Origin: Anaerolineae bacterium
GTDB lineage: Bacteria > Chloroflexota > Anaerolineae > Caldilineales > Caldilineaceae
DNA: 64,000 nucleotides
Assembly: GCA_030432295.1 (NCBI GenBank)
Contig: JAUIHI010000003.1
Span: 186,001-250,000, forward strand
Direction of reading: 5' to 3'
Program-made: the position numbers and the translations under genes
Notes under the pieces: generated by a model
What the model saw: the letters and a program-made list of their open reading frames with translations, nothing else
What the model was told of the DNA's origin: nothing
Databases searched by the model: none
Shown here: piece after piece, positions 9,160-55,988 of the stretch
Numbering within the stretch: position 1 is the stretch's first letter
How the letters are laid out: the number at the start of each line of letters is the position of its first letter

Positions 9160-10374
9160 CTACTCTGCGGTACGAGAAGCGGCCACCGGCGACGGATTTA
9201 CCCGGATGCGGGGCAGCACTGTCGCCACGACCAGCGCGCCCGCCAGCAGCAGCGCGCCGAGCAGCCAGAGCATCCCCACATAGCCCAGCCCGGCGATGAG
9301 TAGCCCGCCGAGAACTGGCCCGGCCACTTTGCCTGCGTTGTCCAGTGTCCCCACAAAACCCAGCCCCGCGCCCAGATGCTCCGGCTCGATCTGGTCTGCC
9401 ACCAGCGCGACAGTGGCCGGGAAGATCAGCGCCTGACAGCCGCCGAAAAGTGCAGCCAGCCCCAACAGCATCCACCCCTGAGAGGCGACGGTCAGCAATG
9501 GCAGCAGACCGGCCAGCCCACCCATCCCCAATGCAATGGCCCAGTAGTAGCCGATGCGATCCCCGGCCCGGCCCGCGGCTGGTTTCAGTAGCAGATGTAC
9601 TCCTTCCTGTACAGTGAAGAAGAGACCGATCTGCGCGGTATTATAGCCGGCGGTCAGCGCATAGACGGGCAAAAAAGCTTTGATGGCGTAGGTGGCGATG
9701 TAGACCGTGGCCTCCATCCCGCCGGAGAGCCAGACGGAGGGGGTGCGGAATGCAGAATGGGGAATACGGAAGGGGGCGCGAGTTGCAAGTTGCGAGTTGC
9801 GAGTTGCGGTCTGCGGTCCGCCGTCCGCCGTCTCATCCAGCAGCAGGACGGGGATGAAAGCCAGCAGACTCAGCCCGCCGATGACGGCGAAGACATCCGC
9901 CGGGTCGTTCCAGAGCAGAAGCATCCCCGCGGCCAGGGGGCCGACGACGTAGCCGCCGCTGCGGGCCATCCCAAACCAGCCCAGCCGCTCGGCCTTGCGC
10001 TTGCCGCTCCGTTCGGCCACATAGGCCACTGTGACCGGGCCGTAGATGGCCGTGGCCGTGCCGTGGATCAGACGCAGGATCACCAGTTGGCCGGGGGTGT
10101 CGATGAATTTGTACAGAAAAGGCACGCCCGCAAAGAGGAGCGTGCCCAGAAGAATCCAAATCTTGCGTCCCTGCCTGTCCGAAAGAACACCAAAGATCGG
10201 CTTCGTTATCATTCCGGTCAGGGTAGAGACAGAGACGATCATTCCCAGCAGCACATCCGTCGCGCCCAGCGATGCGGCCAGAATAGGCAGCAGGGGCGTC
10301 TTGCCCATCTGGTAGCCGGCACGCACGATGAAATCGGCCAGGGTGATTTTGAGGAGATTGGGGGAGGTTTTCAT
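9160..10374 (-). CDS. MFS transporter
   Basis: 404 aa. Twelve-helix major facilitator with the loop 2-3 signature GVLSDRQGRKIW and a matching loop in the second half (GRAGDRIGYYW). The substrate is unknown; a drug or sugar efflux family member is likely. The central cytoplasmic loop between helices 6 and 7 contains about 30 low-complexity residues (TADGGPQTATRN... to ...AFRTPS) encoded by a GAGTTGC-type dispersed repeat at 9740-9838, inserted in frame. The gene lies upstream of MoxR/DUF58 on the same strand but is separated by a palindrome. Confidence 0.85.
   Translation of the reverse strand: MKTSPNLLKITLADFIVRAGYQMGKTPLLPILAASLGATDVLLGMIVSVSTLTGMITKPIFGVLSDRQGRKIWILLGTLLFAGVPFLYKFIDTPGQLVILRLIHGTATAIYGPVTVAYVAERSGKRKAERLGWFGMARSGGYVVGPLAAGMLLLWNDPADVFAVIGGLSLLAFIPVLLLDETADGGPQTATRNSQLATRAPFRIPHSAFRTPSVWLSGGMEATVYIATYAIKAFLPVYALTAGYNTAQIGLFFTVQEGVHLLLKPAAGRAGDRIGYYWAIALGMGGLAGLLPLLTVASQGWMLLGLAALFGGCQALIFPATVALVADQIEPEHLGAGLGFVGTLDNAGKVAGPVLGGLLIAGLGYVGMLWLLGALLLAGALVVATVLPRIRVNPSPVAASRTAE
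9740..9838. repeat. dispersed repeat inserted in frame in the MFS gene
   Basis: GGAATGCAGAATGGGGAATACGG is followed by tandem GAGTTGC and GTCCGCC units. This is low-complexity tandem sequence unlike the flanking code. The reading frame is kept. Confidence 0.75.
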
Positions 10375-36949: not shown

Positions 36950-36989
36950 GGCACAAAGGGCGCTACCCGCGGATAGCGCCCTTTGTGCC
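36950..36989. repeat. 40-bp palindrome GGCACAAAGGGCGCTA
   Basis: 20-nt arms 36950-36969 and 36970-36989 match except one position, with no spacer. It is the likely terminator of the 1711-aa gene, which ends at 37025. Confidence 0.88.
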
Positions 36990-37024
36990 GGATCCAATTG
37001 TATTTTCCAGATTCTTTGGAATCC

Positions 37025-40000
37025 TCAGCGTGCCGCAGAGACCAGCGGCAGATAGACAGAATCCATCCCCACGGCCACTGAGAGCGAAGCCTGGCCGCTC
37101 TGCCCTCGGCTATCAGTCACTGTCAGGGTAATCGTATGTCGCCCTCTGGAGAGTTGGCTCGTATACAACTCACTGCCTGTGCCCAGTGCCCCGTCCAGGT
37201 CAGAACGCCACGTAAAGCCAGCGGGTGACACGCCATCGGCTCCGCTGGTCACCCGGCCCACAAGCTGGACCGGGTAGCCGACGGGTGTGGAGATGGGCTG
37301 ACCGTCACTGTCGATGTGGACAGCCGGGGGCTGAAAGTTTACGCTGAATGGCTTGGCTGTCTGGGCTTCGACGCTGTGCATCCCATCGCTGGCTGTCACC
37401 CGCACCAGAGCCTGACCGTCGCTGCCCAACAGTTGGGAGCCATCGACTGTCAGCGTCTGGCTGAGATAGTCCTGAGCCAGCAGAAGCCAGCGCTGGCCTC
37501 CATCCGGGCTGTACTGCACCTGGAAACGCAGAGGGTCTCCGTCCACGTCCCCGGCCTCCCACTGGATTGTGAGTTGGTCGCTGATGCTTTCACCGCCGCC
37601 AGGCGACAGCAATTGCAGGCTGGGCAGATTGGCGCTGGCCGTGCGTCGGGCCAATTCCATTTCGCTCCCGTCGATGTGCTGCACCACCACCACCTGGGCC
37701 ACGCCATCCACTGCCGGAGCCAGGACGTGCAATGGGAGGGGGCTGCCCTCTTCCTCCGAAACGTCGGCCAGGGCAAAGGGCTGATCCAGCAGAACTTTAC
37801 CAGCCGCGTCCAGCAGGCGCAGGGAGTAGGCAACTTCGCTGCGACTCTGCTGGGATTGCAAACGGGCCGTGTCGGCCACTTTGCGGCTGTTGAGCGTATC
37901 CGAAACTACCCGATAGACCGGGTCCAGTGCCACATAGCCGGTGGTGGGCGAGATGAGTCCGGTGACGACCAGCAGTTCGTCGGCGGCGAGGATGGCCTGG
38001 GTTTGGGACGCGCTGCGAGCCTCATTTCTGGTTTCGGTCACCCGCTGCTGGGGTGCGCCAAAAAAGGTGCGAGTCAGCATAATGGCCCGGTAAGTATAGT
38101 CGGAAATCCATTTTGTGCCCCGGTAGGACATCAGATCACCCACGGCCATCGGCTCAATCACTGTGCCGGTCAGGGGATCGTAGCCATAATAGGCCAGTGG
38201 ATCGTCCGGGCCGATTACACAGTCATTGCCGCTTGCGTCCTGATATGGGTAGTTGTTGTCTGGATTGTCCGGATCGCCGCAATCCACATGGCGGCGGTTG
38301 TCGTTATGACCGATCTCGTGGGCCATTGTGTAGCCGGCCCGAGGGCCATCCCAGGGCCGGGCCGCGTTCTGTCCATCGGTGAACATAAAGCCCCAGGCTT
38401 CGTCGCCCGGTCGATAGCCGCTGCCAAGTGTCCGCGCGCCAGGCCGGTGATCCGGGTGGACAATACCGTAATAATTCATATCGCTCTCGCAATTGTCCGG
38501 ATCGTCCGTGCGCAAATTGTACATCCACAGAGATTTGAGGACATTGGCCCGGTCACTGGGCAATTCGTAGGGACCAGTCCCCCATTCCTCAATGACGTGC
38601 CGGGTATTGTAGACATCGAAGTGGGGTGTGGGATAGAGACTCTCGGCCCGGCGGATAATCTGCCAGAAGCCCGGATCGTTGATGGAGGCCGTGCGCGGTC
38701 TGGTGCGAACCCGCACAATGCCCACACAGACTGCTGGCACCGGAAAGAACTCGATTGTCTTCTCCAGCCGATTGTCGTTGTAGTTGAGTTCGCGGATGGC
38801 CTCTTCCGGGTTCACTTCCAGACGGAAGGTGACAGTCCCTTCTGTCCACGCGCCGGGTATCCAGAAGGTGAACGCCTGGTCGGGCTGGCTGCGATCCGGC
38901 GTAAGGGAAACCCAGCGGTTGTCGGTGGAAGGGTTGGGGCGCACATTGCGGGGTTCCAGCCATTCGTCTCCCCGGTAGGCGTTGAGCCGGGCGGTGACAC
39001 CGGGCACAGGCTCGCCGTTGGCGTGAACGTGAAAACGCAGGAAAGTGCGCTTGCCTGCCACCAGCGGTACTTCCGGGAAGCGCTCGGTGTCCAGGCTCTG
39101 CACCGCCTGGGTGACTTCGACAAAATTGGCCACCAGCGCGGCGAAGGTGCGGTCATAGGCATCGCTGAACTGGGATGTGTTGCCTTCCGGGTCCGTAGCA
39201 GTCAGTGTCAGGCCATAGCCGGGGTCCGGCGGCGCAAGGGTCCAACTGAATTTCCCCTGCGCGTCGGCGCTGGCAAAGGCCAGGTACATCTGGCCCTCGT
39301 CCTCTGTGTCCTGAAAGAACTCCACCCGACACCCAGCGCAGGTCTGCCCTGCCACAGTCCACAGCGCACCCTGTGCCGGGCGTATATCGTTCACCGCCGG
39401 CGCGGCCAGACCCCGATTGCCGCCGTTCAGCCCAATGCCCGTCAGACCGTTGGCGTAGATACTGTTGGCGGACAGACTGTTGGCAATCGTCCGGCCACCC
39501 ACCGCATCTTCCACCCGCACGCCGTTGGCAGTGCTGGCCGTGATGATATTGAGACTCAATTCGTTGTGGGACGCGCCGTTGAGCAGGTAGATGCCGTGGC
39601 CGGTATTGCCCAGCACTACCTCCTCGTCTTCTACATTTTTGGTGATCCCCACCCAGTTGTCCGCCAACTGGTGATTGTCCGCATCGTCCAGCACAATGCC
39701 GCCGCCGGTGGCATTGACCACCCGGTTCTTCCAGATCAGACTCTGCTGGGGACCGCTTTGCAGATAGATGCCCACCAGTCCGTTGCCCAGATTGTCGGCT
39801 CCGTTGTTGTCCGTGCCGATGCGGTTGTTGATAATACCGTTGCCGTTGCTGCCCGCGCCGCTGATGTGGATGCCGTGGCTGGTGTTGCGTACAATCACAT
39901 TGAAATCGCTCCCGCTAAAGCCGTCGCGGCCGATCACATTATTGAAAGCGCCCCCTTCTACCCGCACACCACTGGCCAGGTTATAGGCGATAAAATTGCC

Positions 40001-42160
40001 GTAGACGACATTTTCGCTGGACGCGCCGTTGATGTGAAGGCCATCGCCGGCGTTGCCCGCGTCCTGGCCCGATGGCATCTGGCCGATGCGGTTGGCCCCC
40101 ACCAGCGTTTTGGATGCGTTGCGCAGCCGTACCCCCGCGCCCTGGCTGTGGACAATTACATTGCCCAGATAGCCCGCGCTATTCAGACCCACTGCGTTGT
40201 CGTGCGCGCCCGCGTCCACCAGCACGCCGTCGCCCCCATTGCCTCCGCTGTAGCGCAGCTCTTCCGGGGTTGTGCCGATGAAATTGTGGACGATCTGATT
40301 GTAGGCGGTCTCGCTGCCAAAGATCAGTACCCCGTGGGAGCGGTTGCCAGCGATGGTATTGGCTTCGCCAGTGCGCGTACTGCCGACGACGTTGTGGTGA
40401 GCATTCTCGCGTATCTCCACACCGATCTGATTGCCCAGGGCCTGCAACCCATCCAGACTCAGCCCGATGCGGTTGCCGAGGAGACGGTTCTCCCCGGTAT
40501 TCTCGCCGCTCAGATAGACCCCCGCGGCCTGGTTGCCGCTGATCAGATTGTCGGCGATAGTATTGCCCTGGCCTTCGGCCACCCATACGCCGTAGGAAGC
40601 GTTGGGCAAGGCCCCGGCTCCGGCGAAATCCGTGCCGATGAAATTGCCGTAGAGTTGATTCTGAGCGCCCCGAATCAGCACACCCGGCCCGGTGTGGCCG
40701 CTGAACAGATTGGCGGGTGTGGCCGGTGGACCAGCCAGAAGACCCGCTCCATCCCGACCAGTGGAGAGAATGCCAACGATATTGTTGTCGCCTTCCACCA
40801 GCAGCCCCGCGTCCGGCCCATTGAGTAGGCGCAGCCCCACCAGCCGATTGTTGTGGGAGCGCAGGGCCAGGGTTGGGTTGCCCCCAGCCAGGGCGCTGCC
40901 ATCTACCACCACGCCAGCGCCCTGCCCGTCGATAACCAGCCCGCCCCGGACTACCCCAGGCAGGGGCGACGCCAGTCGGATGGTGACCGGGGCCAGGGGC
41001 GGGAAGTGCGCCGGATCAAAGCGGACAGTGTCGCCCGTGCGGGCAAAGGTCAGGGCACAGCGCAGGGTCAATGCCGTCGTAGAATCATCGACAGTCGTGT
41101 TGACTGTCCACACCAGCGGCCCAACCGCTGGGTCCACCGCCGCGCAGGCAGTGCCGGGCACAGGTGTGGGGGTCGGTTTGATAGGCGACGTGACCGTCGG
41201 TGTTGCCGTAGGGGTAGGGGTGGGCATCCATTTGTTCTCCACAAAGCGCAGCCAGGTGGGGCCAGTCAGGCCACCGCTGCCACTCGCCACAAAGACCGGC
41301 CAGTCGTAGTTCGGCGCGTCGTAGGAGACGACGCTGCTGTTGCCCTGATTGGCGACAAAAAGGGTCTCTTTGTGAAAGGCCAATCCCCGGGGCGCATCCA
41401 AACCGCTGCCCCCAACGGTCTCCACAAGTGCCCCGGTTGTGCCGTCAAAGACAAAAACCGACAGATTGTCAGGGCTGGTGACGTAGAGATGGCCCTCTGG
41501 CCCAAAGGTCAGGTCCGCGGGATCGCCCAGCAAATTGCCGCTGGTGAAATTGCCCAAACCCACACCGGTCGTGGCGTCGAAGTGGAGCACATCTTTGTGT
41601 TCGCTGTCCACCACAAAGAGCGTGCCGTCGCCACCGATTGCCAGGCTGCGCGGCCCTTTCAGACCGCTGCCCCCATTGGCTCTGCCATCGACAAAGACAC
41701 CCTCAAATGTGCCGTCCGCTTTGTAGCGCAGAATCTGATCCGAGCCGTAGCTGGCTACGTAGAGACGCCCCGCGTCGTCAAATGCGATGCCCTGCGGTGT
41801 GTTCAGCCCGCCGCCGTCAGCACTGTTTCCATCCACAAAGACATCTTTGAATTGCCAGGTGGCGGCCTCATAGCGCAAAATCTGGTGCAACCCGCTGCTG
41901 GCAATATAATAGTTGCCGTCCGCTCCCACGGCGATACCGGCAGGAGCGATGGGGCCGCTGGCTGACGGTGCGTTTAATTTGCCCAAAGGCTGACCGCTGC
42001 TGCCGTCGAAGATCAGCACTTCGTGGCTGGCTGTGCTGCTGACCAACAGAATTTGGGCGGGTGCAGCCGCCGCGGGCAAACTGCCCGCCTGGCTTCCCAG
42101 GAGGCCGCCTACCAGCAGCAGACTGAAAATAGCGACGAAGAAAAATCGTTTGGAATGCAT
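37025..42160 (-). CDS. giant secreted NHL-propeller / beta-helix / metalloprotease protein
   Basis: 1711 aa. Signal peptide ([19 protein letters not shown]). Residues ~35-310: NHL-type beta-propeller; ~312-335: Thr/Pro linker; ~380-930: right-handed parallel beta-helix with many GN.I..N..GV-type turns; ~930-1010: Ig-like; ~1013-1165: CARDB-like ([17 protein letters not shown]); ~1180-1345: zinc protease with [11 protein letters not shown] at 1281-1291, metzincin spacing but Asn in place of Gly; ~1560-1700: Ig/PKD-like. The C-terminus ends [10 protein letters not shown]. Likely a secreted or surface-bound hydrolase/adhesin; the substrate is unknown. A weak minus-strand promoter lies at 42241-42268. 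Confidence 0.88.
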
Positions 42161-42240
42161 GTGGTGTACCTCTGAGAATGGGGGATAAATCTCCCAGACC
42201 TGTCGATTTTGGCATCGATTCCCAAGAGGGAGAAGGCGAT

Positions 42241-42268
42241 GTTATAATCAGCAGTGGGAAAAATACAA
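42241..42268 (-). promoter_or_regulatory. possible promoter of the 1711-aa gene
   Basis: On the minus strand, TTGTAT (complement of 42263-42268), a 16-nt spacer and TATAAC (complement of 42241-42246), about 80 nt before the ATG. Confidence 0.4.
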
Positions 42269-42283
42269 AAATCAGAATCCTAT

Positions 42284-42320
42284 GCCAGCCGATCCCATCT
42301 GTTCGTTGGGACCGGCTGGC
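42284..42320 (-). terminator. hairpin after the repeat-protein gene
   Basis: GCCAGCCGATCCCA faces TGGGACCGGCTGGC with one mismatch and a 9-nt loop, 13 nt past the stop codon of the 63-bp-repeat gene. Confidence 0.7.
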
Positions 42321-42332
42321 AAAATTCAGGCA

Positions 42333-42998
42333 TCATTTTGTGGGTTTCGGTTCGGCCTTTGCATCCATAATGGAGTCAGGCAGAAGTTTGTCCGGGCTGG
42401 GCGTGTAGCTGCTGACCAGCACATTGGATGCAATCGAATCATCCGAAAGCTTGTCCGGGCTGGGCGTGTAGCTGCTGACCAGCACATTGGATGCAATTGA
42501 ATCATCCGAAAGCTTGTCCGGGCTGGGCGTGTAGCTGCTGACCAGTACATTGGATGCAATCGAATCATCCGAAAGCTTGTCCGGGCTGGGCGTGTAGCTG
42601 CTGACCAGTACATTGGATGCAATCGAATCATCCGAAAGCTTGTCCGGGCTGGGCGTGTAGCTGCTGACCAGTACATTGGATGCAATTGAGTCATCCGAAA
42701 TTTTGTCTGGGCTGGGCGTGTAGCTGCTGACCAGTACGTTAGATGCCATTGAATAGGGCACGATTTTGTCCGTTTCTGTCGGATCGCAGTAGGGACACTG
42801 GGAGACGGTGGGAGACCAACGCCGTACCCGGCCCTGCCACTCGTCATTTCGATTGACCTTTTCCACATCGACGATTGTGCCTGTTGACGGAGCCGCCAGG
42901 GCTGGTGTAAAGGCAGAAAGCATGAAAATGGCAGTCAAGAGCAAAACGGACAGGATGCGATTGGTGGATTTGGTGGCGTACATCTTTTTGACGAACAT
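42333..42998 (-). CDS. small secreted protein with six 21-aa repeats
   Basis: 221 aa. Signal peptide (LLLTAIFMLSAFTPALAA), a ~45-residue mature N-terminus with CPYC, then six repeats of 21 aa built on SNVLVSSYTPSPDK, then a short Lys/Pro tail. No family recognised. GAGGAG precedes the ATG at 42998. Repeats are nearly identical in DNA, which suggests recent expansion or homogenisation. The two Cys may form a disulfide or bind a metal. It is divergent from the BTAD regulator gene and next to the giant secreted protein; a surface or extracellular role is inferred. Confidence 0.8.
   Translation of the reverse strand: MFVKKMYATKSTNRILSVLLLTAIFMLSAFTPALAAPSTGTIVDVEKVNRNDEWQGRVRRWSPTVSQCPYCDPTETDKIVPYSMASNVLVSSYTPSPDKISDDSIASNVLVSSYTPSPDKLSDDSIASNVLVSSYTPSPDKLSDDSIASNVLVSSYTPSPDKLSDDSIASNVLVSSYTPSPDKLSDDSIASNVLVSSYTPSPDKLLPDSIMDAKAEPKPTK
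42391..42768. repeat. six 63-bp tandem repeats
   Basis: Units start at 42391, 42454, 42517, 42580, 42643 and 42706 (TCCGGGCTGGGCGTGTAGCT...). Inner units differ at only one or a few bases; the last diverges most. The period is a multiple of three, so copy-number change would keep the frame. Confidence 0.95.
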
Positions 42999-43137
42999 TG
43001 GTTGATCTCCTCTGAATTGTTCTGAAAGTGAACTGCGCTAAAAAAGTAGGGTGTACTCTCTTTTCTCCAACGGTGAACAGCCTACGCAACAAACGTCAAT
43101 AAAACGTCTATGCAAAAACGCAGGTAGGAAATTGGCT

Positions 43138-46100
43138 ATGAATAAGAATGAACTGCACATATATCTGCTAGGGACGCCAGAGGTGCTATTAGAGGGTGAA
43201 ACCGTTACGGGTTTTATCTCCGACAAGACCCGCGGGCTTCTCTACTATCTGGCCGCTACGGGCGAACTTCACACCCGCCAATCCCTGGCTTCTCTCTTCT
43301 GGGGTGATATGCCCGAAGCCCAGGCGTTGAAGAATCTGCGCCAGGCTCTCTACAATCTGCAACAGATGCTCGCCCCCCATCTGGATGTGACCCGCCAGAC
43401 CGTGCGGTTGCTGACCGGCGATGTCTGCCAGGTGGATGTGGCCGCATTGGTCGCCGCTCTGGCCGACCCGGCCCCAGACGCACTGGAAGAGGCGGCTCAG
43501 CTCTATCGGGGCGATTTTCTGACCGGCTTTTCCGTAGCCGACGCCCCGGAATTTGAACAGTGGCAAACGCGCCAGGGCGAACATTTGCGCCGCCAATTGG
43601 TAGATGCGCTACGCACAGCCAGCGCGGATCTGGACAAAGCCACCCGGCTGACCTATCTGCGCCATCTGGTGCGCCTGGAGCCGTGGGCTGAGGAGAGCCA
43701 GCGTCAGTTGATGGAAGTGCTGGCCCGCCAGGGAGAGTATGCCCAGGCATTGATACAATACGAGCGACTGGCCGCTGCATTGAACACAGAATTGGGCATT
43801 GCGCCCCAGCCTCATAGCCAGCGTCTGCGCGAGCGCATCCAGCGGGCACGGCAGCGACCGCGCACACCCCTGCCACCCCTGCCCTTTGCGCTGCTGGGGC
43901 GAGAGGAAGAGGCCCAGCGCCTCTCCGATTGGCTGGCCGCGGACAGCAGCCACGCCCCCCGGCTGATTACCCTTCTTGGCCCCGGCGGCATAGGAAAGAC
44001 CCATCTGGCCCTGGCCACGGCCCACAGCCAGCGCCACGCATTTCTCGACGGCGTCTGGTGGGTGGCCCTGCTTGCCACCAGCACAGCCGAGGAAGTTGCC
44101 CTGGCCCTGGCCCGTGTGCTCGGTCTTCCTATCACCGGCCAGGCCACACCGCGCCAACAGCTTCTGCGCCACATCGCCGGCTGGAATGCCTTGCTGGTGT
44201 TGGACAACAGCGAGCATCTGGTCAATGACGATTTTGCCGATCTCATTGTGGCGATTCTGGAGAGCGCGCCCGAAGTGCGTATCCTCCTCACCAGCCGCAA
44301 ACGGCTGAACTTGCGCCGGGAGCAGCTTCTGCCGTTGGAAGGGTTGGCCGACACCGGCGCGGTGGAGCGTCTCTTTGTGGCGCGGGCGCAGCAGATGCAG
44401 CCCGATTTTGTGCCCACTGCTGAGGACAGCGCGGCCATTCGGCGCATTGGCGCGCTGTTGGATGGCACACCCCTGGGCCTGGAACTGGCCGCGGGGCTGA
44501 CCGACCGCTACGATTGTGCGACGGTTGCCCACAACCTGGCCGCCAACTGGGACAGCCTGGCTTCCTCCCTGCGCGATGTGCCCCCGCGCCAGCGCAGCCT
44601 GCGCGCGGTCTTCGACTATTCCTGGCATCTGCTGGAAGAGACCGAGCAGCGTCTTCTCAGTCTGCTGACAGTCTTTGTGGATGGCTTCAGCCAGGAGGCA
44701 GCGGAGGCACTGGTTGATGGCCTCGGCATTGTCCCCAGCGCCGCGCTCCATTCGCTGGTCAGCCATTCGTTGCTGCGTTTTGATCCCCAGCAGGCCCGCT
44801 ACGCTATGCACGATTTGGTGCGCCAATTTGCCAGAGAACGTCTGGAAGCCGACCCCCAGCGCCAGCGCCAGGCCGAAGAAACCCACAGCCTCTACTTTGC
44901 ACAATTTCTGCACAGCCGGGACGAGATGATTCAGCAGGGCCATCCGCCCACAATGGCCGCGGTCAACGGGGAAATGGGCAACATCCAGGCTATGTGGCGG
45001 CGGGTCTGCGACAGCCGCCAGGTGTTGTTGGTGGCCCAGGCCCTGCAACCCCTGGGCTTCTTTTGCGATGGGGTGGCCCGCTATGTGGAGGGCAAGGGGC
45101 TGTATGCCTATGCACTGGCCCGGCTGGACACAGGCGCCGAGAGTGGCCCCCTGCCGTTGCAAAAGACGGTCTGTAGTCTGCTGGGGGCCTATGCCAATAT
45201 GCTGGATCGCCTGGGCGAGTACAGCGAAGCGCTGACCGTCTGCGGCCGCGCGGTGGAAATTGCCCGGCGCATTGGCTATGCCCAGGCTGTGGGTGTTGGC
45301 CTGCTCTTTTTGGGGCGTATCGAGTCGGATCGGGGGGGCTTTGCCCAAAGCGAGGCATATCTGCGCCAGGCCGTGGACTTCTGTGTCGAGAATGGCCTGT
45401 CGGATACCCAGGCCAGGGCCAGCTTTCGCCTGGGAGAAGCGCTCTTTCACCAGGGGCATCTGGACGAAGCCTGGGCCTGCTATGAGATGGCCCAGCGGCT
45501 TTTTCAGACAGAGCAGGACCGACGGGGGCTTTTCTTTGTGGCCCTGGCAATGGGCGAATGGAAGTTGGAGCAGGGAGAAGTGGCCGCGGCCCAGGATGCG
45601 TATACCCGCGGGCTGACAATCGCCCGCAGCAGTGGGCAGGCCCATTTGCAGGCGGCTGTGCATAGGGGGCTGGCCCACTCTCTTGCCCGATCCGGACGGC
45701 CAGCGGAAGCCGAGTCGTTGCTATTGGCTGGCCTGGCGCTGCTGGCGGATATGCCTCCCGGCCTGCCTTTTTTCGGGCTGGTGCTGCCATTGGCCGTGCT
45801 GTACAGCCGCGCGGGCCAGGCTGAGAAAGCCGAAAGTCTGTTGCATTGGGTGGGCGCAAAGGCCAGCGCCATAGACACCCCGCGCCACCAGATTCCGGTG
45901 CTGCTGGCCTTTGCTCAACTTTTTGGACAAACCCAGTTGGAGAAGGCTGCGGCTCTGGTCCGGCTGATTGTGGACGAGCCAGCCAGCACCTGGGCGCAGC
46001 GACGCCAGGCCAGGGCTGGTTTGACAGGGAAAACAGGTGTGGGGCCGGGGCTGTGGGCCAGCCCATCCCAGGCATTGGCCGATTTGATCGATGAAAACAT

Positions 46101-46203
46101 TGCCCGGCGTGGAGAATCTCTTGTGCAGGCGCTATGCAGCCAAGAGGCGTATTCCTGCCCCGCAGGGGTCACAGATTTATACCAATCCATCGGTCTGCTG
46201 TAG
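43138..46203 (+). CDS. BTAD / NB-ARC / TPR transcriptional regulator
   Basis: 1021 aa. N-terminal winged-helix-like and BTAD region (residues ~1-245: [49 protein letters not shown]), then an NB-ARC/STAND ATPase with P-loop GPGGIGKT at 281-288, [10 protein letters not shown] Walker B, LLTSRKRL and [10 protein letters not shown], then about 400 residues of TPR-like helices. Resembles AfsR/SARP-type and MalT-like regulators that oligomerise on ATP and ligand binding. The ATG at 43138 has AGGAA upstream. Divergent from the secreted repeat protein, which it might control; this is inference. Confidence 0.9.
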
Positions 46204-46220
46204 AATGCAGACCGATATCT

Positions 46221-47573: not shown

Positions 47574-50500
47574 ATGAACGAAATTCCCTCGATGCAAGAA
47601 GTAATCCGCCGCCTGCACGAATACTGGGCGGCTCGCGGCTGCACCATCTGGCAGCCCCACAGCGAGAAAGTGGGCGCGGGCACAATGAACCCGGCCACTG
47701 TTCTGCGCGTCCTCGGCCCGGAGCCGTGGAGCGTGGCCTATGTGGAACCCTCTTTTCGGGCCGACGACGGGCGCTACGCCGAGAACCCTAACCGGATGCA
47801 GATGCACACCCAATATCAGGTGATTCTGAAACCGGACCCCGGCAACCCCCAGGAACTCTATCTGGGCAGCCTGGAAGCCATCGGCCTGGACCGCACCCGC
47901 CACGACATCCGCTTTGTGGAAGACAACTGGGAATCCCCCGCGCTGGGCGCGTGGGGTCTCGGCTGGGAGGTTTGGTTGGACGGCCAGGAGATTACCCAAT
48001 TCACCTATTTCCAGCAGGCGGGCAGCCTGCCCCTGGACCCGGTGAGCGTGGAGATCACCTACGGCCTGGAGCGGATTGTGATGTATCTGCAACAGAAGAG
48101 CGAAGTTTGGAGCATCGACTTCGACGGCCACCACACCTACGGCGAAATCTATAAACAGCAGGAGATCGAACACTGCGTTTACAACTTCGAGCTGGCCGAT
48201 GTGGAGCGCCAGAAGATGCTCTACGACATCTACAAAGCCGAAGCCGAAGCCTGCATTGAGCGCGGTCTGGTCGCGCCGGCCCACGACAATGTGCTGCGCC
48301 AGAGCCAGACCTTCAACATTCTGGACGCTCGCGGTGCGATTGGCGTCACCGAGCGGGCTAAATTCTTTGCGGATATGCGCAGCCAGGCCAAACGCATCTC
48401 CGAACTTTACGTGGAAAACCGCCAGCAGGAAGAGTATCCCTGGCTGGGAAACGGGAATCAGGGATCAGGGATCGGGGATCGGGCCGCCGTCACTTCCCAG
48501 TCCCCAGTCTCCAGTCCCCAGTCCCTTTTGCTCGAACTCGGCTCGGAAGAACTGCCGCCCAAGGACGTGACCGACGGCATCGCCCAGATTCAGGTGAAGT
48601 TGGGCGAGCTGCTGGATGCCGCGAATCTGGACTACGAAAAACTCACCGTTACGGGAACAACCCGACGGCTGGTCGCCCACGTCACCGGGCTGGCCCCCCG
48701 CCAGCGGGACGAGACAGTCGAGAAGAAGGGTCCCCCCGCGGATCGAGCCTTCGACAGCTTTGGTGAACCGACAAAAGCCGCCACTGGCTTTGCCCGAGGC
48801 CAGGGCGTGGAGGTGACTGATCTGGAAGTGCGAGACAATTACGTCTGGGCTGTGCAGCACGTGGCGGGCAAAGCCACCGCGGATGTCCTGCCCCAACTGC
48901 TCACCGACCTGCTGGACGGGATGCGCTGGGGCAAGACAATGCGCTGGAACGCTTCCAACGCGGCCTGGCCCCGTCCCCTACGCTGGATTGTCGCGCTCTA
49001 CGGGGAAACGGTTGTGCCGGTGGTTTGGGCCGGGGTGGACAGCGGACGCATCAGCCGTGGCCCCCGCTTCGCCGACGCGGCTGCGGACCTGTCCGCGGGC
49101 GACTTCACGACTTTTGAAGTTGCCAACGCCGACGCCTATTTCGAGGCGGTGGCGGCCCAGGGCGTTGTGCTGGATAGGGAAGAACGGCGTCAGCGTATCG
49201 CAGCGCTGGTGGCAGAGACCGCAGCCCAGGCTGGCGGCAGCATCCCCAACGACCCGGACCTGCTGGACGAAGTGACCGATCTGGTCGAGTCGCCCACGCC
49301 GGTGCTGGGCAGCTTTGAAGCCAAATATCTGGACCTGCCCACGTCGGTGCTGATTGGTGTGATGAAGAAGCACCAGCGCTACTTCCCGATAGAGAAGATG
49401 ACAGCAGAGAAGACGACAGCGGGCAAATCCCAGCTCCTCCCTCATTTCATTACCGTCGCTAACAGCAGTGGCCTGGCCCATCCCGAAGTGGTGCGGGCGG
49501 GAAACGAAGGGGTGATCCGTGCCCGCTATGCGGATGCGGCCTTCTTCTTCCGCAACGACACGGCCCGTTCATTGGAGAGCTTCACCCCCCGGCTGGGCAC
49601 GCTGACTTTCCACGCCAAACTGGGGTCGATGCTGGACAAAGTACACCGGCTGGAGAAGCTGGCCCCAGAGATCGGCGCAATGCTGGACGGCAGCGGGGAC
49701 GAACTGGCGACGGTTGGCCGGGCCGCCGCGCTGAGCAAATCCGATCTGGTCACATCGATGGTGGTGGAGATGACCAGCTTGCAGGGGATTATCGGTGAAA
49801 TCTATGCCCAGCGCAGCGGTGAATCGGCAGAGGTGGCCCAGGCCATTCGGGAACACTACCTGCCCCGTTTTGCTGGGGACAGCACACCGGCTACGCTGCC
49901 TGGTCTGGCCCTGAGTCTGGCCGACAAATTGGACAGTCTGGCCGGTCTCTTTGCCGTGGGTGTCTCGCCCAGCGGCAGCGCGGATCCCTTCGGTCTGCGC
50001 CGGGCCGCGCTGGGTATCGTCAACAATCTGATCAGCGGCCAGATCGATTTTTCGGTCAACGCCGCGCTGGATCGGGCCGCCAGCCATCTGACAGTCGAAG
50101 CCTCTGCCCAAAGTTTGGCCGACGCTGGCGACTTTGTCACCCGGCGTTTGCAGGGCGTGCTGCTGGAAATGGGCTACGCCTTTGATGTAGTGGAGGCTGT
50201 GCTGGCTGTGCGGGGGGACAACCCCGCCGCGGCTGAGCGGGCCTGTGCTGCCGTCTCGAAGCTGGTGGCCGGAGCCGGGTGGAGCGAAACCTTCACCGCC
50301 TATGCCCGCTGCGCCCGCATTGTGCGCAGCCTGGACGGGGAACGGGCGCTGGACCCGGCGGCCTACGAGACCGACGCCGAACGGTTACTGCATTCCGCGT
50401 GGGAGCAGGCCCAGGCGTCCATCAATGGCGCAGAGGAACCGGCCAGCGCGCTCGATTCGGCTCTGGACAGCCTGACCGCACCCATCAACGGCTTCTTCGA

Positions 50501-50716: not shown

Positions 50717-51036
50717 TGCTTTGCCGGGAATCCAATTTCGCCCGACGAGAAAGGGGATTAGGCGCAAAGGTTGTCCGCAATACTATCCGCCGAACTGTCT
50801 GTGTTTGTCCGGGGCAATCTGTGTCATTATTGTCAGACCCTTGACCGCACTGTGATCTTGCACACAATAAATCGTGTCTCTGGCTATGGAGACGCCTTGT
50901 GAATGGATGAAATACTGTTCATATTCATATCTGTGGACCGTCCCCGTCGAACTTTGATTCTACCCCCAAAGGAGAAAGCCATGCGCTGAGAAGCTGCCCA
51001 TCCCCCCGCCGCTTTGAATATGACCATTGAATCACT
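50717..51036. other. leader region of the 1646-aa gene
   Basis: No real gene seen. TTGACC...CACAAT (about 50841-50868) is a possible weak promoter. A strong AAAGGAG at 50968-50974 precedes the two-codon frame ATG CGC TGA (50981-50989), which then stops; the true gene start has its own GGAGG further on. Confidence 0.4.
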
Positions 51037-51047
51037 GGAGGAACCGA

Positions 51048-54000
51048 ATGGACAATCAACCTGCCAGAAAAACCCGCTCGACAACCGCACTCCGCTACGG
51101 AAGACCAGCCATGATTTTGGGGCTGGTAGTCCTGATTCTGGCACTGGCTTTCTCGAACACCGGTGTCTACGCCCAGCAGAACGAACCCCAACCGCCCCAC
51201 GCCGATCTCGGCGACGCGCCCGACAGTACGAATCATCACAGTATGGACAATACAGCGTACCCTGGCGTGCCGGGGCGCTTCCCCACAGTCTTTGCCGACA
51301 CGCCTGCGGGTGAGGGCAAGGGACCCATCCACCTCGACCCTCGGGTCGTCTGGCTGGGCGACAAAGTGAGCCTGGAAAACGAGGCTGACACTGGCCCGGA
51401 TCAGGAGATGGACGCGGGTGGCAACCCCATCAACAACATCCTGGCCAAAGGAGGCGACAACGCGGACAATGACCGGGCCGACGACGGCTGGCTGAACCGA
51501 GATGTGCCCCTGCCCGACTGCCAAGAAGCCACCCTGCAGGTGCGTGTACGCAAGAGCGCCGCGGCCACCCCCGACTCACTCTATCTCAACGTTTGGATCG
51601 ACGGCAACCGGGACGGCGATTGGGCTGACATTGGCCCTTGCCAATCTGACGGCCACTCCAACGAGTGGATCGTTCAGGACTATTCTATCGATATGACCAG
51701 CTTCATCAGCGACTTTGTAGACATCGATGTCAAGACGATTCTGGTCTACAACGAGAAGCCAGATGCACCCGCCTGGATGCGTTTCTCGCTGAGCGACGAA
51801 CCAGCCGTGCATATCCCCCCTGTAGATCTGCCGAACCCCAATCAGCCCATCCCGGACGAACCGCCCATCCACGGCCTGACCGACGGGCGCGGGCCGGAGA
51901 ACGGCTTCAAAATTGGCGAGACCGAGGACTATCTGCGTCTGCCCGGCCAGCAGGAGGAGGCGAAGCCTGATTTTGGCGATGCACCGGACAGCAGCAACCA
52001 CTACGGCATCCCCAATGTGGCTTATCCGGCTGTGCCCACCAATGGCCGTTTCCCCAGTGTCTGGGACGGAACGCCCGCGGGCGCGCCCAGCGGGCCAATG
52101 CACGCCAATCCCTACGCCTCCTGGCTGGGAGATCGGGTCAGCTCGGAGAAGGACGCGGACCAGTTGCCCGATGCCGACCCGATTACCAACATTCTCAACA
52201 ACGGCACAGACTCGAACTCGTCCAATCGGGACGAATTCGACGACGGCTGGCGCAACGGCAAAGATACCCGTTTCGTCGATTGCGAAGAGACGACGCTGAT
52301 TGTGCGCGTCTCCCGCAACCCGGCCACCCCCGGCGGCAAGATGTATCTGAACGTCTACTACGACGGCGACCGCAGCGGCGATTGGCGGCAGCGCAAAAGT
52401 TGCGAAGCGGAGAACACAGACCCCGCCAACCCAGACTATGCCCACGAGTGGATTGTCGAGAATTTCGTCGTCGATACCTCCACCATCGCCGGTTTCATCG
52501 ACCTGCCCGTGACGACAATGAAGGTGCTGAACAACCAACCGGACGCTCCGGCCTGGGTGCGCTTTACTCTGAGCGAAGAGCCGGTGACCGAACTTGCGCC
52601 CTTCGAGCACGACGGCCGCGGCCCCGATTTCCCCAAGCACTACCGCTTTGGCGAGACCGAAGACTATCTGCACCGGCCCAACACCCAGCCCGGCGAACCG
52701 GGTGATCTGGTGATCCACAAGAGCCACTCGGACCCGGACAATCTGGTCTCTGTGGGCGACCGCATCACCTACACCGTTGAAATCGCCCACGTGGGTGGGA
52801 CGGCCCAGGCCACTGCTGTGATGAGCGACCGGCTGCCCGCCGAAGTGCAACTGCTGCGTGGACCTTTCGTGACACTCCTGGCTGGCAACGCTACCCCGCT
52901 GGCGGCCACCTTCGACAGCAGCATCGCCCCCAGCGGCGAGATCAGTTGGGCCGGTCATTTGGCCCCGGACACCAAACTGCGGATCGAGTTTGTCGTCGGT
53001 GTGCGTCGTTGCCCACCGGCAGACCGACAGATCATCCACAATGTGGCCCGTCTCTTCAACCGGGCTGGCTTTCTTCTCGGCGAGTCGACGGCAGACGTGA
53101 GAACCCAGTGCGAGCAGCCCAAGCCACCGGGGATTCAGTTGCACAAGCGCGTTGTGCGCTTGCCGCAGGAAGCCACTGCGATTGATATTCCCTCTGAGCC
53201 AGACGACGAAACATCGATTCTGGCCGGGCACGAAGTGGCCTATGAACTGGTGTTGGATAGCAGTACCACAATCGCTGGCGAAGTCGTCATCTCCGATCGC
53301 ATTCCTGTGGGGATGGTTGCCAGCCAGGTCCAGGTGGACCGGGGCGAAGCGACCCTACGCGACGGCGGTACGCTTGTCCTCTGGCGTCTGCGCATTGGGC
53401 CAGACTCTGGCCCGGCCCACGCACGGATTCTGGTCAAGCCGACCGAACGGCTGGGCTGCGATCAGCCGGTGGTCAATATCGCCCATTGGGTTTTCTATTT
53501 CGGCAACGAAGAACTGCTGCGCGGGCAAAGCAACCGGGCCGGCATCCGTCTGATCTGCGCTGATTTGGGCGATGCACCCGACAGCAGCAACCACGACGGC
53601 ATAGCAATGGATGCCTACGCCGGTGTGCCTGGCGCACGCTTCCCCACTGTTTTTGATGTGGCCGCGCCGGAGCGGGGACCCAAGCATCTGGTCACCCGGC
53701 CCTTCCATCTGGGCCGGGGTGTGACCGAGGAACGGGAAGCCGACCTGGGCGCGGATATGGACCCGACTAACAACATTCTGCCCAAGCTGAAACGACCGGA
53801 TATGGACGGGCGGGATGACGGTCTTGTCCACAAAGAATTGGTTCTGGAAGATTGCAAAGTGGCCCGCTTCCCTGTGCTTGTCAGCATCGACGCGGGCGCA
53901 CTGGCCGCCCTGACTGCGCTGAATCCCAATGAAAAACCACTGGGCTATGTCAATGTCTGGCTGGACAGCAACCGGGACGGCGACTGGGCAGATCACTACG

Positions 54001-55988
54001 AGTGCCCTGGCGACGATCAGACGAAAGTAGTCGGCTGGGAGCACATCGTCATCGATCATCCCGTGGATGTGGCGGCCCTCGGCCCTGGCATCCACAAAAT
54101 CTATCTGACCACCAACTGGCCCGTATCCTGGCCTGTGGAAGACGAGAAGGAACGTCCGGCCTGGATGCGCATCACCCTTGCCGAGAGCGTCTCTAACAAA
54201 ACGCTGGACTGCGGCGCGGGCACCTGTCACATCGGCGATGGCCGGGGCTACGACACGGCTTTCCGCCTGGGCGAAACTGAGGACTATCTGGTGCGCTCGT
54301 ACAGCGATCAGCCCGGCGAAGGTGCAGACCCGACTGTGCGCAAAGAGGGCCGTCTCTCGCCAGAGCGCAACCCGGAGACGGGCGAGGTCTTCTGGCTGGC
54401 CGAGTGGAGCGTGCGTTATGGCAACGCGGGCTATGCCCTGGCAACCAATGTTGTCGTGGCCGATGAGCTATCCGGCCCCCAGACATTGGAGAGCGAACGT
54501 TCAGTGCCGGTAGTTCCACCAACCATCAGCGGCAACAGCCTGACCTATCCGGTGGGCAATCTGGGACCGGGTGCCGAGGGTCGCATCAGTCTGCGCAGTA
54601 TCCTGCCTATCGACACACCGCCCGGCACAATCATCACAAACTCTGTAACGATCACAGCCGACTCGGACACGGACACAACCAACAATACGTCTGTCGTGAC
54701 CCTGACTGTGCCTCTGCTGCCGCCGCTCATCACCTATCCCACGCCAGGGACAACCTGCACCGGCACATTCACCATCACCGGTCGGGTGCAGCCCGGCGCA
54801 ACGGTTGACCTGACGATTGTGGACAGCAATACCGGCACAACCGTCGATTCGGCCACTGTGGGGTCGGACAGCAGCGGCCACTGGACCCACGCAGTTGTCG
54901 GCTTGCCCGACGGCGAGTACGACATCAACGCCACGGCCAGCCTGGGCGGGGCCACCAGCCCGACCACAACCGCGCATGTGATTGTGGACAGCAGCCTCTT
55001 CTGGAATCCGTTGAGTCTGCGCTTCACATCCGAGGACGGCCACGTGAGCCGCCCCCACGACGCGGACGGACGCACGGACGAAGACGGTTGGAGCGTCTTC
55101 CTGCGCCGGGGCACTGTCTACACAGCCTCCCTGACCATCTGCTGCGATGACCCCAATGCAGTTGTAACCCTGGAACTGGGCACTGTGGCAACCCTGACCC
55201 TGACCGACCCGGACGGCGACGGGACCTACACGGCCACATTCACCACCCCCAGCACCGGTCCCATCACCGGACGCATCCGCATCTGTGTCATCTGCTATCT
55301 GATCAAAGTATGCTCGGACGGCGAAGTGACTATCGACCCGGAAGGCACTGTCTTCGACGTGACCACCGGTCTGGCGGTTGGCTCGTCTGCTGTGGCTTGC
55401 ATGGCCGAGCAGGTGAGCGGGGCCGGGGGGGAGAGTGTCTTCAGCCTGTGGCCAGCGGCGGACTACGACCAGATCAATCCGCAAACAACCGGCAGCGATG
55501 GCTATTTCAGCTTCTTCACCCCCGCGGGAACCTACCAGCTTCAGGTGAGCAAGAGTGGCTATCAGCCCTATCGCAGCCAGGACCTGGTGGTGGTGGATGC
55601 GCCAGTCCACTTCGACGTGCCCTTGACGCCGAATGTGGCAGGGGAGGCCACCCACACTGTGCTCATCACCGCCGAGGGCTTTGACCCCGCGGTGTTGACT
55701 GTAGAACCGGGCGCGGTGGTGGAGTTTGTCAATATGGATGTGGCACTCCACTCCTCCCGCACCACCTCACCGGCCCCCAGCTACGGCACGCAAGCAGCTG
55801 AGCTGAAGAGCAGCGACGCCTGGGACAGCGGTCTGTTGGGCAATGGCGCAGGCTATAAGCGCACACTGACCAGCGAAGGCACGTACACCTATACCGACGC
55901 GCTGAATCCGTCGGTGACAGGCACAATCATCGTGCAGAAGGCCTCCGCAGTCCAGATCAATCTCTATCTGCCTGCTGTGATTCGGTAG
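51048..55988 (+). CDS. giant secreted GEVED/DUF11/cupredoxin-like protein
   Basis: 1646 aa. Signal peptide (LVVLILALAFSNTGVYAQ). Three modules begin D-x-GDAPDSsNH (near residues 48, 302 and 815) and end GETEDYL, with DGNRDGDWAD-type calcium-like loops: GEVED domains. Between them are DUF11-type repeats (~545-650, ~700-810, ~1095-1215). Then an Ig-like domain (~1225-1320), a carboxypeptidase-regulatory-like domain (~1430-1530) and a cupredoxin-like fold (~1540-1636) that keeps one His (ALHSS) but has Asp and Asn in place of the usual Cys/His (TYTDALNPSVTGTI). The C-terminus ends INLYLPAVIR. GGAGG at 51037 fixes the ATG at 51048. Probably a surface or matrix protein. Confidence 0.88.
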   Translation: MDNQPARKTRSTTALRYGRPAMILGLVVLILALAFSNTGVYAQQNEPQPPHADLGDAPDSTNHHSMDNTAYPGVPGRFPTVFADTPAGEGKGPIHLDPRVVWLGDKVSLENEADTGPDQEMDAGGNPINNILAKGGDNADNDRADDGWLNRDVPLPDCQEATLQVRVRKSAAATPDSLYLNVWIDGNRDGDWADIGPCQSDGHSNEWIVQDYSIDMTSFISDFVDIDVKTILVYNEKPDAPAWMRFSLSDEPAVHIPPVDLPNPNQPIPDEPPIHGLTDGRGPENGFKIGETEDYLRLPGQQEEAKPDFGDAPDSSNHYGIPNVAYPAVPTNGRFPSVWDGTPAGAPSGPMHANPYASWLGDRVSSEKDADQLPDADPITNILNNGTDSNSSNRDEFDDGWRNGKDTRFVDCEETTLIVRVSRNPATPGGKMYLNVYYDGDRSGDWRQRKSCEAENTDPANPDYAHEWIVENFVVDTSTIAGFIDLPVTTMKVLNNQPDAPAWVRFTLSEEPVTELAPFEHDGRGPDFPKHYRFGETEDYLHRPNTQPGEPGDLVIHKSHSDPDNLVSVGDRITYTVEIAHVGGTAQATAVMSDRLPAEVQLLRGPFVTLLAGNATPLAATFDSSIAPSGEISWAGHLAPDTKLRIEFVVGVRRCPPADRQIIHNVARLFNRAGFLLGESTADVRTQCEQPKPPGIQLHKRVVRLPQEATAIDIPSEPDDETSILAGHEVAYELVLDSSTTIAGEVVISDRIPVGMVASQVQVDRGEATLRDGGTLVLWRLRIGPDSGPAHARILVKPTERLGCDQPVVNIAHWVFYFGNEELLRGQSNRAGIRLICADLGDAPDSSNHDGIAMDAYAGVPGARFPTVFDVAAPERGPKHLVTRPFHLGRGVTEEREADLGADMDPTNNILPKLKRPDMDGRDDGLVHKELVLEDCKVARFPVLVSIDAGALAALTALNPNEKPLGYVNVWLDSNRDGDWADHYECPGDDQTKVVGWEHIVIDHPVDVAALGPGIHKIYLTTNWPVSWPVEDEKERPAWMRITLAESVSNKTLDCGAGTCHIGDGRGYDTAFRLGETEDYLVRSYSDQPGEGADPTVRKEGRLSPERNPETGEVFWLAEWSVRYGNAGYALATNVVVADELSGPQTLESERSVPVVPPTISGNSLTYPVGNLGPGAEGRISLRSILPIDTPPGTIITNSVTITADSDTDTTNNTSVVTLTVPLLPPLITYPTPGTTCTGTFTITGRVQPGATVDLTIVDSNTGTTVDSATVGSDSSGHWTHAVVGLPDGEYDINATASLGGATSPTTTAHVIVDSSLFWNPLSLRFTSEDGHVSRPHDADGRTDEDGWSVFLRRGTVYTASLTICCDDPNAVVTLELGTVATLTLTDPDGDGTYTATFTTPSTGPITGRIRICVICYLIKVCSDGEVTIDPEGTVFDVTTGLAVGSSAVACMAEQVSGAGGESVFSLWPAADYDQINPQTTGSDGYFSFFTPAGTYQLQVSKSGYQPYRSQDLVVVDAPVHFDVPLTPNVAGEATHTVLITAEGFDPAVLTVEPGAVVEFVNMDVALHSSRTTSPAPSYGTQAAELKSSDAWDSGLLGNGAGYKRTLTSEGTYTYTDALNPSVTGTIIVQKASAVQINLYLPAVIR

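Follow-up and report, generated by a model that had tools for sequence, protein, structure and literature searches.

Extracellular amyloid subunits show repeats of about 20 residues behind a signal peptide (PMC6242892). The DNA sites of SARP regulators are directly repeated heptamers, which classically form 11-bp units; for PimR, an operator with three copies is known (PMC5930380). A gene for an apparently exported repeat protein and a divergent gene for a SARP-type STAND regulator stand side by side in the 64,000-nt stretch of an Anaerolineae bacterium genome analysed here (contig JAUIHI010000003.1, positions 186,001 to 250,000; the window hereafter). With the gene of a giant secreted protein, they form a trio of about 9.2 kb located between metH/MTHFR-like and M50 protease genes. 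We tentatively read the repeat protein as an orphan extracellular protein of structural, matrix, coat, or adhesive kind, coded in a labile and probably SARP-controlled locus.

The repeat gene lies at 42333–42998 on the reverse strand and codes for 221 aa; the regions of its product were read from the sequence. A good Shine-Dalgarno sequence (RBS AGAGGAG) precedes the ATG by eight to nine bases. Residues 1–35 have the appearance of a Sec signal peptide, with a basic n-region, ILSVLLLTAIFMLSAF, and a TPALA/AP cut, assigned by eye rather than with SignalP. Residues 36–85 represent a mature N-terminal part of 50 residues with CPYC, which supplies the only two cysteines of the protein, and the array is followed by the C-terminal tail DAKAEPKPTK. 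The mature protein has about 186 aa and a calculated pI of about 4.3. Judged by its sequence, this is a genuine gene for a small protein that is apparently exported. The initial annotation had placed the ORF correctly, and the signal peptide and CPYC that it named are both there, the former as read by eye.

The tandem array at 42384–42754 on the reverse strand is the strongest of the window in TRF, with a period of 63 bp (21 residues), 5.9 copies, 95% matches, and a score of 651. Six cores SNVLVSSYTPSPDK, all identical as protein, begin at residues 86, 107, 128, 149, 170, and 191. The full length of 21 residues is reached by five units, of which the first ends in ISDDSIA and the next four in LSDDSIA, and a degenerate half unit TDKIVPYSMA stands before the first of them. 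The six near-identical 63-bp repeats of the initial annotation, with a unit length that preserves the frame, are borne out in array and period, except that the sixth is only a 14-residue core with the altered tail LLPDSIM. The claim that there is almost no divergence in DNA agrees with the 95% identity, but the five full units differ at 8 sites, with the L/I change at one and synonymous third positions at the other 7. When the leading 39 nt of the six cores are compared, every pairwise codon difference (23/23) is synonymous in the coding frame, while none (0/23) is so in the two other forward frames, where all are non-synonymous. Random substitutions in the unit would be synonymous in 24–29% of cases, and 7 or more synonymous sites out of 8 are then expected by chance with P = 0.0003–0.001, depending on transition bias. 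Because 7 of the 8 variable sites are synonymous, the units diverged in DNA with the protein held constant; the frame is coding, and the repeat protein sequence has been under selection. Another open frame on the same strand, 42326–42868, was ruled out as the coding frame, since the differences are synonymous only in the frame of 42333–42998. Protein-altering changes sit in the linkers at both array ends (IVPYSMA before, LLPDSIM after), which is compatible with a selected core and equally with ordinary unequal crossing-over. A scan of about 0.52 Mb of the genome gave further tandem arrays, of which several evidently code for protein (e.g., 120 bp × 6.2 and 372 bp × 6); tandem growth as such is common in this genome, and the 63-bp array is among the cleanest. 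Heptanucleotide tandem repeats were also observed in the window at 9778 (GCGAGTT), 48496 (CCCAGTC), 57285 (CCCAATA), and 59676 (AATACCC), and the one at 48496–48525 falls within the glyS frame, apparently where a linker joins the two parts of this gene.

No convincing homologue of the repeat protein was found in its own genome, 100 relatives, and 396 genomes of the class, nor of the repeat part alone in 400 genomes of the phylum. Genome contigs queried by peptide and by degenerate DNA pattern, as well as viral contigs, plasmids, phages, and PDB sequences, gave no convincing match, and no family was assigned by Pfam, NCBIfam, or PHROGs. This agrees with the initial annotation, which recognised no family and proposed the comparison of the repeat unit with protein databases; that comparison ended without a convincing match. 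Rfam gave no match, and an RNA element is not supported. No second strain of the species is present in the searched collections, within which the repeat protein is an orphan. One match from the phylum set (G575), strong-looking at E 1e-8, was rejected as convergent. It is a lipoprotein (L176, G575:C39) having 21-residue coiled-coil repeats and a C-terminal domain with a DCSGFA motif. Lipoproteins of this type share with the repeat protein the 21-residue unit, export, and that weak profile match, but their units are proline-free heptad coiled coils joined to the C-terminal domain. From the single sequence, AlphaFold revealed no confident fold (mean pLDDT 43.6); each repeat unit received one short strand at low confidence. 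Foldseek found no significant structural match, the best having E 0.9.

The giant secreted protein (37025–42160, reverse strand, 1711 aa) had been described as a protease. It is giant and secreted, and it is a possible protease by an 11-residue zinc-type (HExxH) motif spotted by eye; no peptidase domain was recognised by Pfam or NCBIfam, and Pfam gave only NHL, beta-helix (NosD), and Ig/PKD-type domains. After the stop of the repeat gene there is a hairpin (42283–42321, reverse strand; 15-nt arms, 93% complementary, z −4.65), a possible terminator with no T-run directly after the stem, and one transcript for the repeat gene and the giant gene is doubtful because of this strong hairpin between them. 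A second giant secreted-type protein, with DUF11, GEVED, and a plastocyanin-like match, is coded at 51027–55988, a few kb from the trio. The regulator (43138–46203, forward strand, 1021 aa), earlier called a divergent STAND regulator, is indeed divergent from the repeat gene and has BTAD, NB-ARC, and TPR parts according to Pfam and NCBIfam. Its BTAD matched PF03704 with 64 bits against a curated cut-off of 22.1, which makes it SARP-type. As to an N-terminal winged-helix DNA-binding domain, the AfsR model aligns to the regulator from residue 4, but the Pfam matches listed, at E up to 1, include no separate one for DNA binding. No closer homologue with a similar neighbour was found above about 38% identity.

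The starts of the repeat gene and the regulator gene are 139 bp apart. In this divergent promoter region (42999–43137), three GTGWAC copies (GTGAAC at 43028, GTGTAC at 43051, GTGAAC at 43073), spaced 23 and 22 bp, represent a candidate operator; 22 bp would equal two helical turns, departing from the classical 11-bp SARP spacing. Among shuffled or genomic stretches of equal length, about 3% have a triple this good of any motif (P 0.026–0.028), the motif here being chosen post hoc. The specific GTGWAC pair pattern has four occurrences in 6.7 Mb, and this overlapping triple, unique in the genome, accounts for two of them. A divergent neighbour with a signal peptide was found for 5 of 14 other SARP genes in the same genome compared with 14% of background genes (P 0.036, or 0.012 when the trio locus is counted in), a weak enrichment from crude gene and signal-peptide calls. 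It is plausible, as the initial annotation suggested, that the regulator controls the repeat gene, because they share a 139-bp divergent promoter with a unique triple and because SARP genes are enriched in secreted neighbours. The data also support the idea that SARP-STAND regulators of this genome may control secreted proteins. The Pfam-recognised divergent neighbours of the other SARP genes are NHL, LVIVD, DUF11, or DUF4397 proteins, and the pairing with such large secreted proteins recurs at loci L137, L142, L143, L146, and L148. Close to a further SARP gene, L139:1569-2633 (G000:C10) codes for an apparent lipoprotein built from two tandem copies of 154 residues (462-bp repeat, 83%), and a methyltransferase gene separates it from the regulator.

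The history of the locus was followed by a junction comparison, for which DNA upstream of the conserved glyS gene was taken from 13 relatives, and the trio was delimited to 36955–46220 with approximate edges. The metH/MTHFR-like and M50 protease genes are adjacent and divergent in the five congeners whose junction was compared and in five other genera (L127, L128, L130, L131, L134). Among the relatives compared, the trio stands between them in the window only; it is absent in four congeners and has left a scar in the fifth, G005, which is the nearest relative by the two flanking genes (92.7% protein identity; the tree node is weak, 0.28). The scar at L150 (G005:C27:65800-70500), seen also at L124, keeps the left edge of the trio, CAGAAAATTATACGGTGCGCAGAGCAGAG then ACAAACCCGCGTC; the regulator persists there as an open stub of its last 43 codons, 49% identical (E 2e-8) and with the same ten terminal residues before the stop. 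As both edges and the stub remain, G005 has undergone a deletion. Most simply, G000, the genome of the window, and G005 would descend from an ancestor that had the locus, with or without the repeat gene, and G005 would have lost about 9 kb of it. The trio is a labile locus with one insertion/deletion history.

In our preferred, still tentative reading, the SARP-STAND regulator may bind the three repeated sites of the common promoter and turn on the repeat gene, and the exported chain would serve as extracellular matrix, coat, or adhesive material. Each 21-residue unit would contain one short segment prone to beta structure, NVLVSSY, next to a turn rich in Ser/Thr/Pro/Asp, the two cysteines would be available for cross-linking, and the number of units would set the length or strength of the material. 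The synonymous bias with identical cores, the RBS and apparent signal peptide, the one strand predicted per unit at low confidence, the common insertion/deletion history of the trio, the unique GTGWAC triple, the other SARP genes beside divergent secreted proteins, and the similar repeats of amyloid subunits argue for this reading. Against it, no fold, homologue, known anchor, or assembly partner was found, and a long cross-beta stack is disfavoured because each unit has prolines and aspartates; the post-hoc motif, the 22–23 bp spacing, and the weak neighbour enrichment also count against it.

The main rival to extracellular material is a young, lineage-specific, and largely dispensable secreted filler, i.e., a short exported ORF grown by tandem duplication, held open under weak selection, and lost freely with the locus. 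We consider it possible, if somewhat less likely: it agrees with the lack of relatives in any collection searched, the deletion of the locus in G005, and the otherwise common coding tandem arrays of this genome, but the synonymous bias of the repeats, though from 8 sites only, reveals a constraint on the protein sequence that goes beyond a weak one. A distant rival is a multi-copy precursor, where cleavage of the chain would occur at the one Lys that each unit has, and identical peptides of up to 21 residues (around LSDDSIASNVLVSSYTPSPDK) would act as a signal, perhaps sensed via the adjacent regulator. Six identical cores with more variable linkers between them, one Lys per unit, the neighbouring gene for what may, from its motif only, be a protease, and the sensor-type STAND/TPR part of the regulator speak for it. 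Nevertheless, it is unlikely, as none of the three genes was recognised as coding for a dedicated exporter, a modification enzyme, an importer, or a receptor, and the divergence at the ends of the array is usual for tandem arrays. In its full form, as a bacterial secreted precursor with six identical peptides per chain encoded beside its own SARP-STAND sensor-regulator, it is very improbable. Most improbable is an origin from a secreted lytic transglycosylase (GH23) by decay of its N-terminus and multiplication of its catalytic-Glu helix, which was suggested by two weak matches (E 3e-4 and 1e-3 per genome) to N-termini of such enzymes, both with a signal peptide plus V(R/Q)RWSP, but was rejected on shuffled controls: in a profile of further independent transglycosylases, gathered with the two initial matches left out, the match is reduced to a 13-residue W..VRRW stretch of 2 bits, through which only the mature N-terminal part scored (4 of 3000 shuffles as good), the repeat unit was no better than shuffles (543–582 of 3000 as good), the catalytic Glu is absent with no Pfam SLT match, and with about 400 genomes searched, chance alone should give E-values of this size.

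Secreted tandem-repeat orphans are an already familiar kind, and the repeat protein adds one well-supported member to the many secreted repeat proteins of the lineage; the new part is its setting. The locus is more useful than the protein, since its occupied, empty, and scarred states can be cleanly compared among congeners and it has a compact candidate operator. The promoter of the trio makes the targets of the many SARP-STAND regulators of these bacteria testable at one site.

Compared with the functional-amyloid subunits CsgA (a curlin with repeats of about 19 residues) and FapC, the repeat protein is likewise a small exported protein with a signal peptide and tandem units of about 20 residues, each with a beta-prone segment. 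It differs from them in its near-identical repeats, theirs being imperfect, in the prolines of each unit, and in the lack of the Q/G/N curlin pattern S-X5-Q-X-G-X-N-X5-Q, as the unit SNVLVSSYTPSPDKLSDDSIA has neither Gln nor Gly. Pfam curlin gave no match at E up to 1, and the repeat gene has the giant NHL/beta-helix protein and the SARP regulator as neighbours, with neither secretion or nucleation partners nor csgB, csgE, csgF, or csgG companion genes beside it. With systems of the AfsR and PimR type, the trio locus shares the BTAD/NB-ARC/TPR arrangement, the divergent target and regulator, and directly repeated sites between them. The regulator is not an AfsR (88 bits against a cut-off of 1430), and while the neighbours of AfsR and PimR are genes of antibiotic clusters and their sites are spaced 11 bp, the neighbour here is a secreted repeat protein and the spacing is 22–23 bp.
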